The translations under genes were made by a program, and so were the position numbers. Below are positions 3,842-34,936 of a DNA stretch of 37,919 bases, piece by piece (position 1 is the first letter of the stretch; the number at the start of each line of letters is the position of its first letter). The notes beneath the pieces are model-generated. The model saw only the letters and a list, made by a program, of their open reading frames with translations, had not been told where the DNA came from and made no database searches. Source of the DNA: Candidatus Bathyarchaeota archaeon (lineage in GTDB: Archaea > Thermoproteota > Bathyarchaeia > Bathyarchaeales > Bathyarchaeaceae); the NCBI GenBank assembly GCA_029882515.1, contig JAOUKN010000010.1, positions 1 to 37,919 on the forward strand. Direction: 5' to 3'.

Positions 3842-6800
3842 ATGTCTGTTGAGGAAACAGTTCATAAAGTCATAAATGAAGTTTTCTTCGGTGTTTTATC
3901 TCCTCAAGAGGTACGAAGGCTTTCTGTTTCCGAAATACGAACAGCTGACACTTATGACGAAGATGGAGCACCCATAATATCTGGACTTATGGACGGACGA
4001 CTAGGAACACTTGAGCCAAGACAACGATGTAAAACGTGTGGCAACACTGCAATTAGATGTCCCGGACACTTCGGTCACATCGAACTTGCTGTCCCTATTA
4101 TTCACATAATATTCAACAAGGTAATAAACGAACTTCTCGGAGCCACTTGCAGAAGTTGCGGACGTATCTTATTGCCGACGGATCGAATTGAAAACATCAA
4201 GTCGAGAATCAATCGGATTCAAACAATGTTGGGAGAGGTTCCTCGCAGTCTCCACAAGAAATTCTCGCGAGAGGCTAGAGGAAAAGAATGCCCTCATTGC
4301 GGGACACCCCAATATAAGGTAATATTCGAGAAACCAACAAAATTTAGTGAGGATGTTCCCGAGGGCGGTGCGCAAAGATTAACGCCAAGTATGCTCAGAG
4401 AACGACTCGAACGCATATCTGATGATGATCTTGTGTTGTTTGGTTTCAACCCAGAAAATGCCCGTCCAGAATGGATGGTTCTGCAAGTTCTCCCAGTTCC
4501 TCCGGTCTATGTAAGACCTTCAATAACTTTAGAATCTGGTATCCGCTCTGAAGATGATTTAACCCATAAACTTGTAGACATTATTCGTATTAATCAACGC
4601 TTAAAGGAAAACATGGAAGCTGGTGCTCCAACTCTTATTATCCAAGACCTATCTGAGCTGTTGCAGTATCACGTGACAACCTATTTTAACAACGAAGCTT
4701 CAGGAATCCCTCCTGCTAGACATCGGTCAGGTAGAGCACTTAAAACGTTGTCTCAGCGTCTTAAAGGAAAAGAAGGAAGATTTAGAAGTAATCTTTCTGG
4801 CAAGAGGGTGGACTTCTCGGCCCGCACTGTGATTTCCCCAGATCCGAATATTGATATCAGTGAAGTGGGAGTGCCATTGGATGTTGCCATAAGACTCTCC
4901 ATGCCTGAGAAAGTCACCCAATGGAACCTTGAGAAAATGCAAAAGTTGATTATCAATGGTCCAGAAAAATATCCTGGTGCGCTTTATATTGTGAGACCTG
5001 ATGGTAAACGAGTTAGACTAGAGTTTGTTGTTGACAGAGAAAAGGTTGCAGAGGTGTTAGAGCCAGGTTTTACTGTGGAACGCCATCTTAAAGATGATGA
5101 TATCGCCATCTTCAATAGGCAACCCTCCCTTCATCGTATGTCCATTATGGCACATTACGTTCGAGTGTTACCCCATAAAACTTTTCGGCTACACCTATGT
5201 GTCTGTCCTCCTTACAACGCTGACTTTGATGGAGACGAAATGAACCTCCATATACCTCAGAGTGAGGAAGCACAAACAGAATCGCGCCTTCTTATGCAAG
5301 TTCAAGACCAAATTCTTTCTCCACGATTTGGAGGCCCCATTATAGGGGCAATCCGAGACTTCATCACTGCCGCTTATCTTCTAACCCAAAAAGCAACTCG
5401 CCTTACCAAAGATGAAATTTGTAGACTACTAATAGCTGCAGAATATGACGGTCCATTACCTGGCCCAGACATAAAGAAACCTGAGCCCCTTTGGACTGGA
5501 AAACAAATATTCAGTCTCTTTATACCGAAAGATATGAATTATGTGTTGAAAGCCACAACTTGTCGTGGCTGCACTAATTGCCTTTGTGAAGACTGTCCAC
5601 ATGACGCTTATGTAGTCATAAAAGACGGTGTTCTAAAGTGTGGTGTGATTGATAGGCGTTCCATTGGTGCAGAGCAGTCCGAAAGTCTTCTTCACAGAAT
5701 AATAAAAGATTATGGAACGTACGTTGGAAGGCAATTTCTGAATCGTACCTGTCAATTGCTCAAAGTGTTCATAACACTGCGAGGATTCACCTACTCCTTT
5801 GACGAACTAGAGTTGTCTTCTGCTGCACAAGAAAAGATCAAGAAAACAATACAAAAATTCGAGAACAGGATACAGGAGTTGATAAAATCCTATCGAAGTC
5901 GTACATTGCAAAGGCTTCCAGGCCAAACTATGCAGGAATCCTTTGAAATTTATGTTATGAATGAATTGGCCAAGGCCAGAGATAAAGCTGGGAGAATTGC
6001 AGATGAAGATTTTGACATAGCAAATTCAGGCATAACGATGACAAGAACAGGAGCGAGAGGTTCTAACCTTAACATTGGTCAAATGACTGCTTGTGTAGGG
6101 CAGCAGTCTGTAAGAGGAAAACGGATTATGCGTGGATATCGTGAGCGTGCATTGCCTCACTTTAAAGTTGGTGATCCCGCACCCAAAGCCAGAGGTTTTG
6201 TTTACTCTTCCTACCGAGATGGGTTAGATCCAGTTGAATTCTTCTTCCATGCTATGGGTGGCCGGGAAGGATTGGTGGACACTGCTGTGCGAACCCAACA
6301 AAGTGGATACATGCAGAGAAGATTGATTAATGCTTTAGAGCATCTGCGCATAGAATATGACGGGACTGTTCGAAACTCAGTTGGCGACATCATTCAGTTC
6401 CGATATGGCGAGGACGGCGTCGATCCTGCCAAAAGCGATCATGGAAAAGCTGTGAATGTCAGTCGTCTTGTCGAACAAATTAAGATTATGATAAAAAAGG
6501 GCAAGCCAGCGTCTCCTAAATTTATTAAAGAGAGCCATAAGGAAGTCGAAAATCAACTAACTCCCCTTCTCAACAAGGAGTTAAAACACGAGTTATCAAA
6601 AGCTAGGTTAAGCAAAAAAGGTGTACAGCAGCTAATTGATTTAACTCTGGAAAATTACAGACGAGCTCTTGTTGAACCTGGTGAAGCCGTTGGAATCATT
6701 GCTGCCCAATCTATGGGAGAGCCAGGGACTCAAATGACCCTTCGCACATTTCACTATGCTGGAGTCAGGGAACAGAACGTGACTTTGGGCTTACCACGTC

Positions 6801-7666
6801 TCATCGAGATTGTGGATGCTCGGCGTATACCTTCAACTCCAATTATGACCGTTTACTTGGACAAGGAGCATGAAATCAGTAAAGAAAAAGCCACTCAGAT
6901 TGCTCGAAATATTATCTGTACAATCATCGAAGATATTGCCAAGGCCTTGTACGACGACGCTGAAAACGAGGAAGTTGTTATTAGACTCGACCCCACTATG
7001 ATGGAGGATCGTGACGTGACCATAGATGATTTACACAAGGCTCTCGGTCTACTTAACTGTAATTTAAGGATCAAGGAGAATCAAATAGCCCTTGAGCCTA
7101 AGAAGCCTGTAGATCGCAAGAAACTATTAGATAAAGTGTCTAATCACTTAGTCAAGGGCGTCCCTGATATTGGTCGTGTTCTCGTTACTGAGGAGGTGGG
7201 AAAATGGGTTATACGAACAGATGGCTCCAACTTGTCAAAGGTTCTCGAGGTGCATGGTATAAACCCTACTAGAACAATTACTAATCACATTCACGAAATT
7301 GCCAAAACTCTCGGAATTGAAGCTGCAAGAAATGCTATAATCAATGAGGCAATTGGAGTTCTTGAAGAGCAGGGTCTTGACGTAGATGTAAGACATGTGA
7401 TGTTAGTATCCGATATAATGACTGCTACTGGTGAAGTACGGCAGATAGGAAGACACGGAATTAGTGGAGAAAAGACAAGTGTGCTTGCACGAGCTGCATT
7501 TGAAATTACTGTTCCAAACATAGTTGAGGCTGCCATTAAAGGAGAAAGTGACCCACTTAGAGGGGTGACCGAAAACGTTATAGTAGGACAATCTATACCG
7601 ATTGGCACAGGCTTAGTGGATCTTTACATGTCAACGATTCGTACTGAGGACCAAAAGAATGATTGA
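3842..7666 (+). CDS. rpoA: DNA-directed RNA polymerase subunit A, A' and A'' in a single ORF
   Basis: 1274-aa ORF with NADFDGDEMN (A' active site) followed without a break by the A'' motifs EPGEAVGIIAAQSMGEPGTQMTLRTFHYAG and TATGEVRQIGRHGISGEKTSVLARAAFE. Confidence 0.96.
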   Translation: MSVEETVHKVINEVFFGVLSPQEVRRLSVSEIRTADTYDEDGAPIISGLMDGRLGTLEPRQRCKTCGNTAIRCPGHFGHIELAVPIIHIIFNKVINELLGATCRSCGRILLPTDRIENIKSRINRIQTMLGEVPRSLHKKFSREARGKECPHCGTPQYKVIFEKPTKFSEDVPEGGAQRLTPSMLRERLERISDDDLVLFGFNPENARPEWMVLQVLPVPPVYVRPSITLESGIRSEDDLTHKLVDIIRINQRLKENMEAGAPTLIIQDLSELLQYHVTTYFNNEASGIPPARHRSGRALKTLSQRLKGKEGRFRSNLSGKRVDFSARTVISPDPNIDISEVGVPLDVAIRLSMPEKVTQWNLEKMQKLIINGPEKYPGALYIVRPDGKRVRLEFVVDREKVAEVLEPGFTVERHLKDDDIAIFNRQPSLHRMSIMAHYVRVLPHKTFRLHLCVCPPYNADFDGDEMNLHIPQSEEAQTESRLLMQVQDQILSPRFGGPIIGAIRDFITAAYLLTQKATRLTKDEICRLLIAAEYDGPLPGPDIKKPEPLWTGKQIFSLFIPKDMNYVLKATTCRGCTNCLCEDCPHDAYVVIKDGVLKCGVIDRRSIGAEQSESLLHRIIKDYGTYVGRQFLNRTCQLLKVFITLRGFTYSFDELELSSAAQEKIKKTIQKFENRIQELIKSYRSRTLQRLPGQTMQESFEIYVMNELAKARDKAGRIADEDFDIANSGITMTRTGARGSNLNIGQMTACVGQQSVRGKRIMRGYRERALPHFKVGDPAPKARGFVYSSYRDGLDPVEFFFHAMGGREGLVDTAVRTQQSGYMQRRLINALEHLRIEYDGTVRNSVGDIIQFRYGEDGVDPAKSDHGKAVNVSRLVEQIKIMIKKGKPASPKFIKESHKEVENQLTPLLNKELKHELSKARLSKKGVQQLIDLTLENYRRALVEPGEAVGIIAAQSMGEPGTQMTLRTFHYAGVREQNVTLGLPRLIEIVDARRIPSTPIMTVYLDKEHEISKEKATQIARNIICTIIEDIAKALYDDAENEEVVIRLDPTMMEDRDVTIDDLHKALGLLNCNLRIKENQIALEPKKPVDRKKLLDKVSNHLVKGVPDIGRVLVTEEVGKWVIRTDGSNLSKVLEVHGINPTRTITNHIHEIAKTLGIEAARNAIINEAIGVLEEQGLDVDVRHVMLVSDIMTATGEVRQIGRHGISGEKTSVLARAAFEITVPNIVEAAIKGESDPLRGVTENVIVGQSIPIGTGLVDLYMSTIRTEDQKND

Positions 7667-8494: not shown

Positions 8495-8737
8495 ATGCCT
8501 GAAAAAGCAAAAGTGGATCAAACCGTTGACTGTATAGGACTTTACTGTCCCGAACCAGTTTTCAGGACTCGGCAAGAAATAGATAAGATGGTTGTTGGAC
8601 AGGTTTTGGAAATTATTGCTGATGACCCAGCAGCAGAGCAGGATATTCAAAGTCTAATAAGAAGGACGGGGCAAAAACTTATTGAGATACGGAAAGAAGG
8701 AAGCCATATTCGTTTTTTGATTGAAAAAGTTAAATAG
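8495..8737 (+). CDS. tusA: TusA/SirA-family sulfur carrier protein
   Basis: 80 aa with the family signature VDCIGLYCPEPVFRTRQEI and ADDPAAEQDI. Confidence 0.9.
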   Translation: MPEKAKVDQTVDCIGLYCPEPVFRTRQEIDKMVVGQVLEIIADDPAAEQDIQSLIRRTGQKLIEIRKEGSHIRFLIEKVK

Positions 8738-8749
8738 AAGGTGATCTCG

Positions 8750-9931
8750 ATGACGGGGAAAAAAGTCTACATGGATTATGGAGCTGGAGCACCTGTGGAT
8801 CCCAGAATTCTTGAGACCATGAAGCCATACTTTACCAAAGCCTTTGGAAACCCTTCTTCGGTTCATTCTATGGGGCAAGAAGCAAAGAAGGCTGTAGAAA
8901 AGTCACGAAGAAGTATTGCAGATCTTGTTGGAGCTGAGATAAAAGAGGAAATTGTCTTCACTTCTGGGGGCACGGAAAGTAACAATTTAGCTATTAAAGG
9001 TGTTGCATATCGCAATAAGAAACGGGGGGATCATATGATTGCCACTACGCTCGAACATATGTCCGTAATTAACACTTTCAAGTATCTGCAGAAAGATGGT
9101 TTTAGGACTACTTGCGTGCCTGTAGATGAGTGTGGAATAGTTGATGTTGAAGCTTTGAAAAATGTAATCACAGACCAAACTATACTTATTTCAGTCATAT
9201 ATGCTAACGGCGAAATTGGAACAGTGGAGCCAATAAAAGAAATTGGAGAAGTAGCTCATGAGAGAAACATCTATTTTCATGTGGATGCGGTTGCTGCGGC
9301 AGGTCAAGTACCCATCAACGTGATAGATGAGCATATAGACTTGCTTTCTCTTTCGTCCAATGATCTCTATGGTCCAAAAGGAGTAGGGGCCTTATATATT
9401 AAAACTGGAACCAAAATCCAGCCGATTGTGCATGGTGGTGGTCAGGAAAAAGGAATGCGATCTGGAACAGAGAACGTGCCTGCTATCGTCGGTATGGGCG
9501 AGGCTGCAAGGATTGCAAAGAAAGAAATGAAATCTGAAAGTGGTAGGTTATCTGGGTTGCGGGATAGATTGATAGAAGGTGTTTTGGATAAGATACCGCG
9601 TTCTTTTTTGAATGGTCATCCCACCATGAGGCTTCCCAATAACGCCAATCTTAGGTTTAGTTATATTGAGGGTGAATCGTTGATACTGAGCCTTGATATG
9701 GAAGGAGTGGCTACTTCTTCTGGTTCAGCGTGTACTTCAAAGACCCTTGAGCCTTCTCACGTCTTGTTGGCTATAAATTTGGCTCATGAAGAGGCTCATG
9801 GATCATTAGTGTTCACGTTGGGGAGATGGACAACTAAGGAGGAAATTGATTACGTAATGAAAATATTGCCAGGTATCGTAAGACGTTTAAGGGCCATTTC
9901 CCCTTTAACTCCTAAAGAGTTGCTGAGGTGA
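8750..9931 (+). CDS. IscS/NifS-like cysteine desulfurase homologue lacking the PLP-binding lysine
   Basis: NifS/IscS family throughout (FGNPSSVHSMG, FTSGGTESNNLAIKG, GGGQEKGMRSGTENV, SSGSACTS, EPSHVL). The canonical S-x-H-K-[IL]-Y-G-P-K-G reads S-S-N-D-L-Y-G-P-K-G. Start set to ATG 8750; the track uses the in-frame GTG at 8741. Confidence 0.93.
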   Translation: MTGKKVYMDYGAGAPVDPRILETMKPYFTKAFGNPSSVHSMGQEAKKAVEKSRRSIADLVGAEIKEEIVFTSGGTESNNLAIKGVAYRNKKRGDHMIATTLEHMSVINTFKYLQKDGFRTTCVPVDECGIVDVEALKNVITDQTILISVIYANGEIGTVEPIKEIGEVAHERNIYFHVDAVAAAGQVPINVIDEHIDLLSLSSNDLYGPKGVGALYIKTGTKIQPIVHGGGQEKGMRSGTENVPAIVGMGEAARIAKKEMKSESGRLSGLRDRLIEGVLDKIPRSFLNGHPTMRLPNNANLRFSYIEGESLILSLDMEGVATSSGSACTSKTLEPSHVLLAINLAHEEAHGSLVFTLGRWTTKEEIDYVMKILPGIVRRLRAISPLTPKELLR

Positions 9932-10313: not shown

Positions 10314-10493
10314 ATGAAATTCATAAAGTGTAAAGTATGTGGTAAAGAGATAGCTGAGACTGACAGATGTGAACTAGCACGTTATCAAAAGACCATTGAT
10401 GGAGAACGATACACATTTTGTTGTGTCCATTGTGCCGATGAACTTGATGTAAAACAAAAGCAACATAAAAAAGGTTCAAGCATAGGTTGTTAA
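10314..10493 (+). CDS. 59-aa Cys-rich putative metal-binding (TRASH-like) protein
   Basis: MKFIKCKVCGKEIAETDRCELARYQKTIDGERYTFCCVHCADELDVKQKQHKKGSSIGC. CxxC followed by C-x3-C. Starts 4 nt after iscU. Not in the ORF track. Confidence 0.7.
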   Translation: MKFIKCKVCGKEIAETDRCELARYQKTIDGERYTFCCVHCADELDVKQKQHKKGSSIGC

Positions 10494-33721: not shown

Positions 33722-34936
33722 TCATTCAACTAGAGAGTTAATTATCTCTTTCAATGCAGATACAAATTTGTCAATTTCCTCTTCCGTGTTGTAAAAGTAG
33801 GTGGATGCTCTAATGGTTCCTGACTTGTGAAGGAGACCCCTTATGAAGGGAAGCGCACAGTGATGCCCAGAGCGGACCATAATGTTGGCGGAAACGTCTA
33901 ATGCCAAGGCTACATCATGTGGATTTAAGTCCTTTATATTGAAGGCCATAATTCCAATCTTTTGTTCAGGGTCAGGACTATAAACCTCAACATTAGGAAG
34001 GGCCGTCATTTCCTCATACATCAGCGTTGTGAGTTTCCTTTCGTAGCGTTCAATGTTCTTCATTCCAATTTTCTGCAAGTAGTCAATTGCAGCCCCTAGT
34101 CCAATCACGTCTGCTATGGCAGGGGTTCCAGCTTCAAATCTTCTCGGGCTTTTGTCCAGTGTGTAAGAGTCATGCTCTACGTCTGCTATGGCTCCGCCCC
34201 CAATGCACAGCGGTTCAACTTCTTCGCTTAATTCTTTTCGAATGTAAAGGACTCCAGAACCAGTTGGGGCGCACATTTTATGCCCACTGAAGGCAAGGAA
34301 GTCACATCCAATTTTTTGAACATCTACTTTCATGTGTGGAACTGACTGCGCACCGTCAACCAAGACATATGCACCATGTTCATGGGCAATCTTTGTGATC
34401 TCCTCAATAGGTGTAATCACTCCTAAAACATTTGAAACATGTGTCAGAGCCACCAGCTTCGTCTTGTCATCAATAATTTTCTCAAAATCGGTGACATCTA
34501 GAAGTCCTTCTTCAACTGATCCCTTGGGCCTAACAGTCTTCAATTCTATGTCATAATTATTCTTTACACGAAGCCAAACAATGAAATCTGAGTGGTGTTC
34601 AATCAGGGATGTAACGATCTTTTCTCCTTTTTTCCATTTCAAGCCGCTTGCAATGAGATTTATTCCTTCTGTGGTATTTTTGGTCATGATAACTTCGTTT
34701 TCAGATTTTGCATTAATGAAATCTGCGACTTTTGTTCGAGCTCGTTCGTATTCTTCGCTTGCCTTTTGGGAGAGGTGGTGGATGCCTCGCCCTACATTTG
34801 CTCGATAGTGGCAATAAAACTCCAACATTTTCTGAAGAACTGGCTCTGGAGTGAGACTACTTGCGGCGTTGTCTAAGTAAATTATGCCTGTTTTCAAAAT
34901 CGGGAAATCCTTTCTCACTTTTCTTACGTTTAGCAT
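33722..34936 (-). CDS. sufS: SufS-type cysteine desulfurase with intact PLP-lysine motif
   Basis: 404 aa: IIYLDNAASSLTPEPV, TKNTTEGINLIA, VDGAQSVPHMKVDV, DFLAFSGHKMCAPTGSGVLYI, MVRSGHHCALP. Confidence 0.94.
   Translation of the reverse strand: MLNVRKVRKDFPILKTGIIYLDNAASSLTPEPVLQKMLEFYCHYRANVGRGIHHLSQKASEEYERARTKVADFINAKSENEVIMTKNTTEGINLIASGLKWKKGEKIVTSLIEHHSDFIVWLRVKNNYDIELKTVRPKGSVEEGLLDVTDFEKIIDDKTKLVALTHVSNVLGVITPIEEITKIAHEHGAYVLVDGAQSVPHMKVDVQKIGCDFLAFSGHKMCAPTGSGVLYIRKELSEEVEPLCIGGGAIADVEHDSYTLDKSPRRFEAGTPAIADVIGLGAAIDYLQKIGMKNIERYERKLTTLMYEEMTALPNVEVYSPDPEQKIGIMAFNIKDLNPHDVALALDVSANIMVRSGHHCALPFIRGLLHKSGTIRASTYFYNTEEEIDKFVSALKEIINSLVE

Follow-up and report, generated by a model that had tools for sequence, protein, structure and literature searches.

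The window analysed here is a 37,919-nucleotide stretch of archaeal DNA (contig JAOUKN010000010.1, positions 1 to 37,919) from a Candidatus Bathyarchaeota archaeon. One run of its genes has the order rpoB, rpoA, an L30e-like gene, a NusA-like gene, tusA, an iscS-like gene without the catalytic Lys, iscU and a gene for a small CxxC protein; the first four of these were named by eye. The RNA polymerase subunit A gene (3842-7666) is one fused frame of 1274 amino acids with no A'/A'' split. The features relevant to the iscS-like gene are as follows.

8495..8737, + strand: tusA-like sulfur carrier gene with CPxP cysteine (LYCPEP); PF01206, E 3e-23
8741..9931, + strand: iscS-like gene (Lys-less IscS, P0001); open frame with Aminotran_5 and NifS profiles
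9209..9211, + strand: Gly at substrate-carboxylate residue Asn155; by alignment, role from the equivalent DndA Asn150 (PMC3343029)
9293..9295, + strand: Ala at Gln183; by alignment, equivalent to DndA Gln178 (PMC3343029)
9341..9382, + strand: LLSLSSNDLYGPKG motif; alignments to E. coli and A. fulgidus IscS
9716..9739, + strand: SSGSACTS loop with the Cys328 codon at 9731-9733; conserved in 104/104 Lys-less proteins
9809..9811, + strand: Val at Arg354, the substrate-carboxylate Arg; by alignment, equivalent to DndA Arg353 (PMC3343029)
9936..10310, + strand: iscU scaffold gene with Cys33, Cys58 and Cys102; NifU_N, E 4e-51, and NifU_clost TIGR03419 above cut-off
10314..10493, + strand: gene for a small CxxC...CC protein of 59 aa, after iscU
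33722..34936, - strand: ordinary SufS-type desulfurase gene; TIGR01979 above cut-off, SGHK and RSGHHC intact

Translation of the iscS-like gene from either of two candidate starts, GTG 8741 or ATG 8750, gives a product of 393-396 aa (393 aa from the ATG) with the profile of a class-V aminotransferase of group I (PF00266, E 1e-73). Its closest solved relative is Archaeoglobus fulgidus IscS (4EB5, E 8e-138), and identity amounts to 56% with that protein (4EB5/4EB7/4HVK) and 50% with E. coli IscS (1p3w/3lvj). In alignments to both, the Asp codon gat at 9362-9364 falls exactly on E. coli K206 and A. fulgidus D199, placing Asp, not Lys, at the Schiff-base position, and Asn (9359-9361) replaces His205 (E. 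coli numbering). The original prediction that the invariant His-Lys of IscS/NifS had become Asn-Asp is thus borne out, and the motif, an acidic residue preceded by SSN as in the A. fulgidus type, lies at 9341-9382, inside the interval 9338-9390 to which it had been assigned. Two further readings made from the letters hold as well: HVDAVA stands in place of HVDA-x-Q (Gln183 to Ala), and the mobile-loop cysteine that IscS/NifS proteins require, Cys328, is retained. The earlier statement on A. fulgidus IscS agrees with the literature, where the SSND-bearing protein is reported to show no desulfurase activity and to contribute a cysteine ligand to a [2Fe-2S] cluster held by IscU.

Four sources supplied the IscS-like proteins: the window's class, in which 82 of the 121 genomes sampled gave a match, the phyla to which a Lokiarchaeota genome and a Methanomassiliicoccaceae genome belong, and contigs of named genomes; the nearest named relative of the window is a Bathyarchaeota MAG (L009). 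After duplicate removal there were 104 Lys-less homologues, with Asp (99), Glu (four) or Ala (one) at the Lys position. Because Asp recurs in 99 of them and the preceding Asn in 103, the Lys-to-Asp change is neither a sequencing error nor chance. In a tree built without the columns of the Lys trait itself, a single branch (SH-aLRT 92) sets all Lys-less rows, together with A. fulgidus IscS and the window protein, apart from the rest, with one change of state, which indicates common descent of the window protein with A. fulgidus IscS; a single loss of Lys explains all Lys-less IscS. The clade spans Bathyarchaeia, Asgard archaea, Thermoplasmatota and Archaeoglobus, and on this sequence evidence the loss is old and has been retained over several deep archaeal lineages. 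In rare members (L320, L321, L348 and L358) Ser, Ala or Pro-Asp takes the place of the SSND residue, and the loop of L320 and L321 reads TGASCAS, not SGSACTS. A pattern search for SSND in 199 bacterial genomes of one Bacillota genome's phylum returned one match, a chance occurrence in a pyrimidine operon; in a pattern scan of Thermoproteota, L103 and L105 were likewise chance matches to non-IscS genes.

The loss extends well beyond the catalytic base. In DndA, Asn150, Gln178 and Arg353 form the presumed cysteine-carboxylate binding site, which is stringently conserved in cysteine desulfurases (PMC3343029); at the equivalent positions Asn155, Gln183 and Arg354, which IscS/NifS requires, the window protein has Gly, Ala and Val. 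Lys206, Gln183, His205 and Arg354 are all kept in 62/62 canonical archaeal IscS proteins. Among Lys-less proteins, by comparison, Arg354 survives in 0/104 (mostly Leu, Val, Gln, Glu, Met or Ala, with Leu in A. fulgidus IscS), Gln183 has become Ala in 99/104 and His205 has become Asn in 103/104. The window protein is therefore probably a catalytically dead desulfurase look-alike, as far as residues can tell. An Asp-to-Lys mutant, proposed earlier as the control for activity, is inadequate: with Arg354, Gln183 and His205 lost too, and Asn155 in the window protein, neither catalytic base nor substrate pocket is left, and the mutation should not restore activity. A. fulgidus IscS with Lys at the Asp position has been deposited as PDB 4R5F. 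The look-alike also poses an annotation hazard, since its product (8750-9928) scores 535.1 bits against a cut-off of 530.75 for TIGR03402, the NCBI NifS equivalog, so that automatic annotation would give the name cysteine desulfurase to an enzyme that is probably dead.

The cofactor pocket, on the other hand, is retained. T76, H104 and D180 are present in 104/104 proteins of the Lys-less clade, S203 in 103/104, and residue 243 is T or S in 104/104; His104, the PLP-stacking residue, is the H of EH in EHM and is kept in the window protein. A figure legend describes the A. fulgidus complex with both PLP and a [2Fe-2S] cluster (PMC9769115). Assignment of the window gene to a "PLP-less class" therefore stands as regards membership in the A. 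fulgidus-type clade, but the term itself is unsupported, because the residues that hold the phosphate and ring are near-invariant and the complex is drawn with PLP; "Lys-less, without an L-Cys pocket" is the better label. Non-covalently held PLP, or another ligand in the PLP pocket, appears the likelier reading. These same near-invariant residues, and the PLP in the A. fulgidus IscS crystal, could also point to an enzyme that still uses PLP non-covalently, either with some substrate that is not L-cysteine or through chemistry that needs no Lys. We regard such an enzyme as quite improbable, given the loss of Lys, His205 and, in the window protein, all three substrate-carboxylate residues, and given the reported inactivity of A. 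fulgidus IscS as a desulfurase.

Most functional information on the iscS-like gene is carried by its two neighbours, tusA ending 3-12 bp before it and iscU beginning 4 bp after it, neither of which had entered the original prediction. The upstream product has both the PF01206 domain and the CPxP cysteine of the TusA family. Across the Lys-less loci the arrangement recurs: where at least 900 bp of upstream sequence was available, tusA lies directly upstream in 78/93 and a DsrE-family gene nearby in 50/93, and iscU follows in 89/96. These tusA counts come from tblastn; ORF calling gave 51/83, antisense ORFs masking tusA. DsrE identity is based on PF02635 and PF13686, both well above cut-off. By contrast, tusA or dsrE was found near 0/54 canonical archaeal iscS loci and 0/64 bacterial loci. 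For tusA, the comparison of Lys-less with canonical archaeal loci gives a Fisher value of 9e-27, which ignores shared descent; the pairing covers three archaeal phylum-level groups. The active cysteines are kept in TusA (CPxP, 84/86), in DsrE (Cys88, 58/59) and in IscU (Cys33, Cys58 and Cys102 in all ungapped rows of such loci). A CoA-disulfide-reductase-like gene lies close by on the same strand in twelve Lys-less loci, and in L014 it is fused to rhodanese and TusA domains. The small CxxC...CC protein behind iscU has counterparts in several loci of the window's class, among them L094 (2428-2649) and L104 (383-556), the latter copy being YHS/TRASH-like, below the Pfam cut-off.

Genome inventories bear on whether the operon does any work. 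SufB/SmsB (PF01458) was absent from 18/23 genomes with the Lys-less gene, the control search being positive in 14/14 control genomes. In nine of those 18, all near-complete and of the window's class (G073, on one 2.15-Mb contig, and G124, G118, G309, G316, G324, G344, G356 and G378), the sole NifU_N protein is the IscU beside the Lys-less gene. With this IscU as their single NifU_N protein and SufB not found, these nine Bathyarchaeia genomes probably rely on the operon as a functional, main assembly site; it is hard to view as an ornament, even if absence from a draft genome is no proof. In the 88%-complete genome from which the window comes there are three IscU-like genes, one IscS-type gene, which is the Lys-less one, and an intact SufS gene, with no SufB found. 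The loss of catalytic residues, with a motif-intact SufS in the same window, might suggest a decaying gene or non-functional paralogue. Decay is nevertheless extremely unlikely because the clade is conserved: the frame is open, identity is kept at 53-70% across the Lys-less class, Cys328 is invariant and the PLP pocket nearly so, the operon is conserved, and in some genomes its IscU is the only ISC/SUF-type scaffold detected.

Some Asgard genomes, and genomes of the window's class, carry a second type of IscS in which Lys is retained, Gln183 is replaced (mostly by Asp) and Arg354 has mostly become Leu; this type forms a separate clade in the tree (support 99). Adjacency of tusA or dsrE as a mark of Lys loss alone was accordingly rejected, since this Lys-bearing clade without Gln183 and Arg354 has it too. 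One of its branches (EHLSVI / DACDA / FSSHK) shows the order dsrE-tusA-iscS-iscU, in 7/12 Lys-bearing loci without Gln183. In the other (EPLSVL / DASDA / SSYK, with His104 changed to Pro), a SufS-type gene lies no more than about 4 kb away in 22/24 loci, and tusA was not found in these 24. Among the tree representatives, tusA or dsrE accompanies 0/37 Arg354-bearing versus 36/53 Arg354-less IscS proteins, in two separate clades. When pocket loss was set against tusA in a sign test on the tree, just 2 to 4 phylogenetically independent contrasts were available; this is below what significance requires, so no statistical claim is made for repeated pairing; as a repeat of the same pocket loss and tusA/dsrE pairing, the second clade is suggestive. 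These 24 proteins (L205-L207, L210-L213, L216, L217, L219, L221-L230, L232-L234 and L328), a second degenerate clade, keep Lys206, with Pro at His104, Asp at Gln183, mostly Tyr or Phe at His205 and Leu at Arg354 (24/24); they always occur with iscU, usually with a SufS-type gene nearby, and may serve IscU as a platform that SufS supplies.

Several known systems resemble the window operon in part. A. fulgidus IscS shares SSND, the change of Gln183 to Ala, the loss of Arg354, the retained Cys loop, the IscU partner and the clade; the window protein, at 56% identity, differs in having also lost Asn155 (Gly), and its gene sits directly behind tusA. Several putative sulfur carriers of A. fulgidus are listed in UniProt. 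IscS1 of Methanosarcina acetivorans (MA0808), which likewise forms an iscSU pair and is reported to lack the catalytic Lys, has been suggested to act like A. fulgidus IscS; it is uncharacterised, having formed inclusion bodies, and its cluster holds four other genes of unknown function (PMC7585200). The MIS system (MisS-MisU) shares with the window the adjacent IscS and IscU homologues, but MisS is described as a cysteine desulfurase, whereas for the window's IscS partner the residues predict no such activity, and Lys-less loci have TusA/DsrE in addition. The E. coli TusA relay shares a TusA-family protein with the CPxP cysteine and DsrE-family partners, which in E. coli are TusBCD. There, TusA binds IscS (PMC11302051), with IscS as donor and TusA as acceptor. 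If TusA talks to the Lys-less protein, the flow would be reversed, because a dead IscS cannot give sulfur.

The near-constant placement of a dead look-alike beside sulfur-carrier and scaffold genes suggests another sulfur route to new Fe-S clusters. The account we favour, with moderate confidence, is that dead IscS is kept in a tusA-(dsrE)-iscS-iscU operon as a docking and cysteine-donating partner of IscU, with sulfur arriving through TusA/DsrE. The Lys-less protein would bind IscU as in the (IscS-IscU)2 complex of A. fulgidus and offer its Cys328 to the cluster being formed; persulfide or sulfide would come from TusA, and from DsrE in loci that have it, replacing L-cysteine on the Lys-less protein; and TusA itself would be charged by a separate SufS or IscS, or by inorganic sulfur. 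The SufS-type enzyme encoded elsewhere in the window is a possible donor. Such a relay is favoured by the loss of the substrate pocket, the A. fulgidus precedent of an inactive IscS that donates a Cys ligand, the conserved neighbours, the retained cysteines of TusA (CPxP), DsrE and IscU (three), the confinement of TusA/DsrE adjacency to Arg354-less IscS, the nine genomes with this single IscU and the CoA-disulfide-reductase-like genes of twelve loci; Cys328 and the PLP-holding residues are kept as well. Against it count the published A. fulgidus proposal, in which the Cys is a ligand and not a sulfur source, the few independent origins of the pairing, the lack of a dsrE in the window operon, and the intact SufS or canonical IscS that many genomes with the Lys-less gene also hold. 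The sulfur flow from TusA/DsrE is something we infer from gene content and conserved residues.

The main rival to the TusA relay is a platform that provides only a ligand: Cys328 would be lent to an IscU-bound cluster formed from free iron and sulfide, and TusA/DsrE would serve another pathway, such as tRNA thiolation. The A. fulgidus literature fits this alternative, as do the direct use of sulfide by the SMS system of M. jannaschii (PMC12192291) and a 95%-complete genome with a Lys-less IscS (G087, locus L139) in which no recognisable Lys-bearing cysteine desulfurase was found. It leaves unexplained, however, both why tusA should so often adjoin Lys-less iscS in three phylum-level groups and never canonical archaeal iscS, and why a second, separate Arg354-less clade has the same neighbours; we consider it rather unlikely. 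The broader form of the relay account, in which a widespread archaeal route leads from TusA/DsrE to IscU on a dead IscS platform, serves as the only ISC/SUF-type scaffold in some Bathyarchaeia and was reached separately by a second clade, is put forward tentatively, as a proposal about as apt to fail as to hold, or slightly more so.

An IscS with Lys replaced by Asp is already known from A. fulgidus. No description of TusA/DsrE pairing with archaeal IscS was found in the literature searched, and priority for it is not claimable, most subscription papers being beyond reach. The usual description of Fe-S biogenesis calls for a cysteine desulfurase from which a scaffold receives sulfur; the Lys-less clade has retained the body and cysteine of the desulfurase, dropped its chemistry and stands paired with sulfur carriers. 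Where anaerobic archaea obtain the sulfur of their Fe-S clusters is a long-standing question, which this pairing makes testable in vitro with three small proteins. If the relay is real, Fe-S assembly in these archaea would no longer be tied to desulfuration by the IscS partner, and their MIS would be an exception to the rule of a desulfurase as its IscS.
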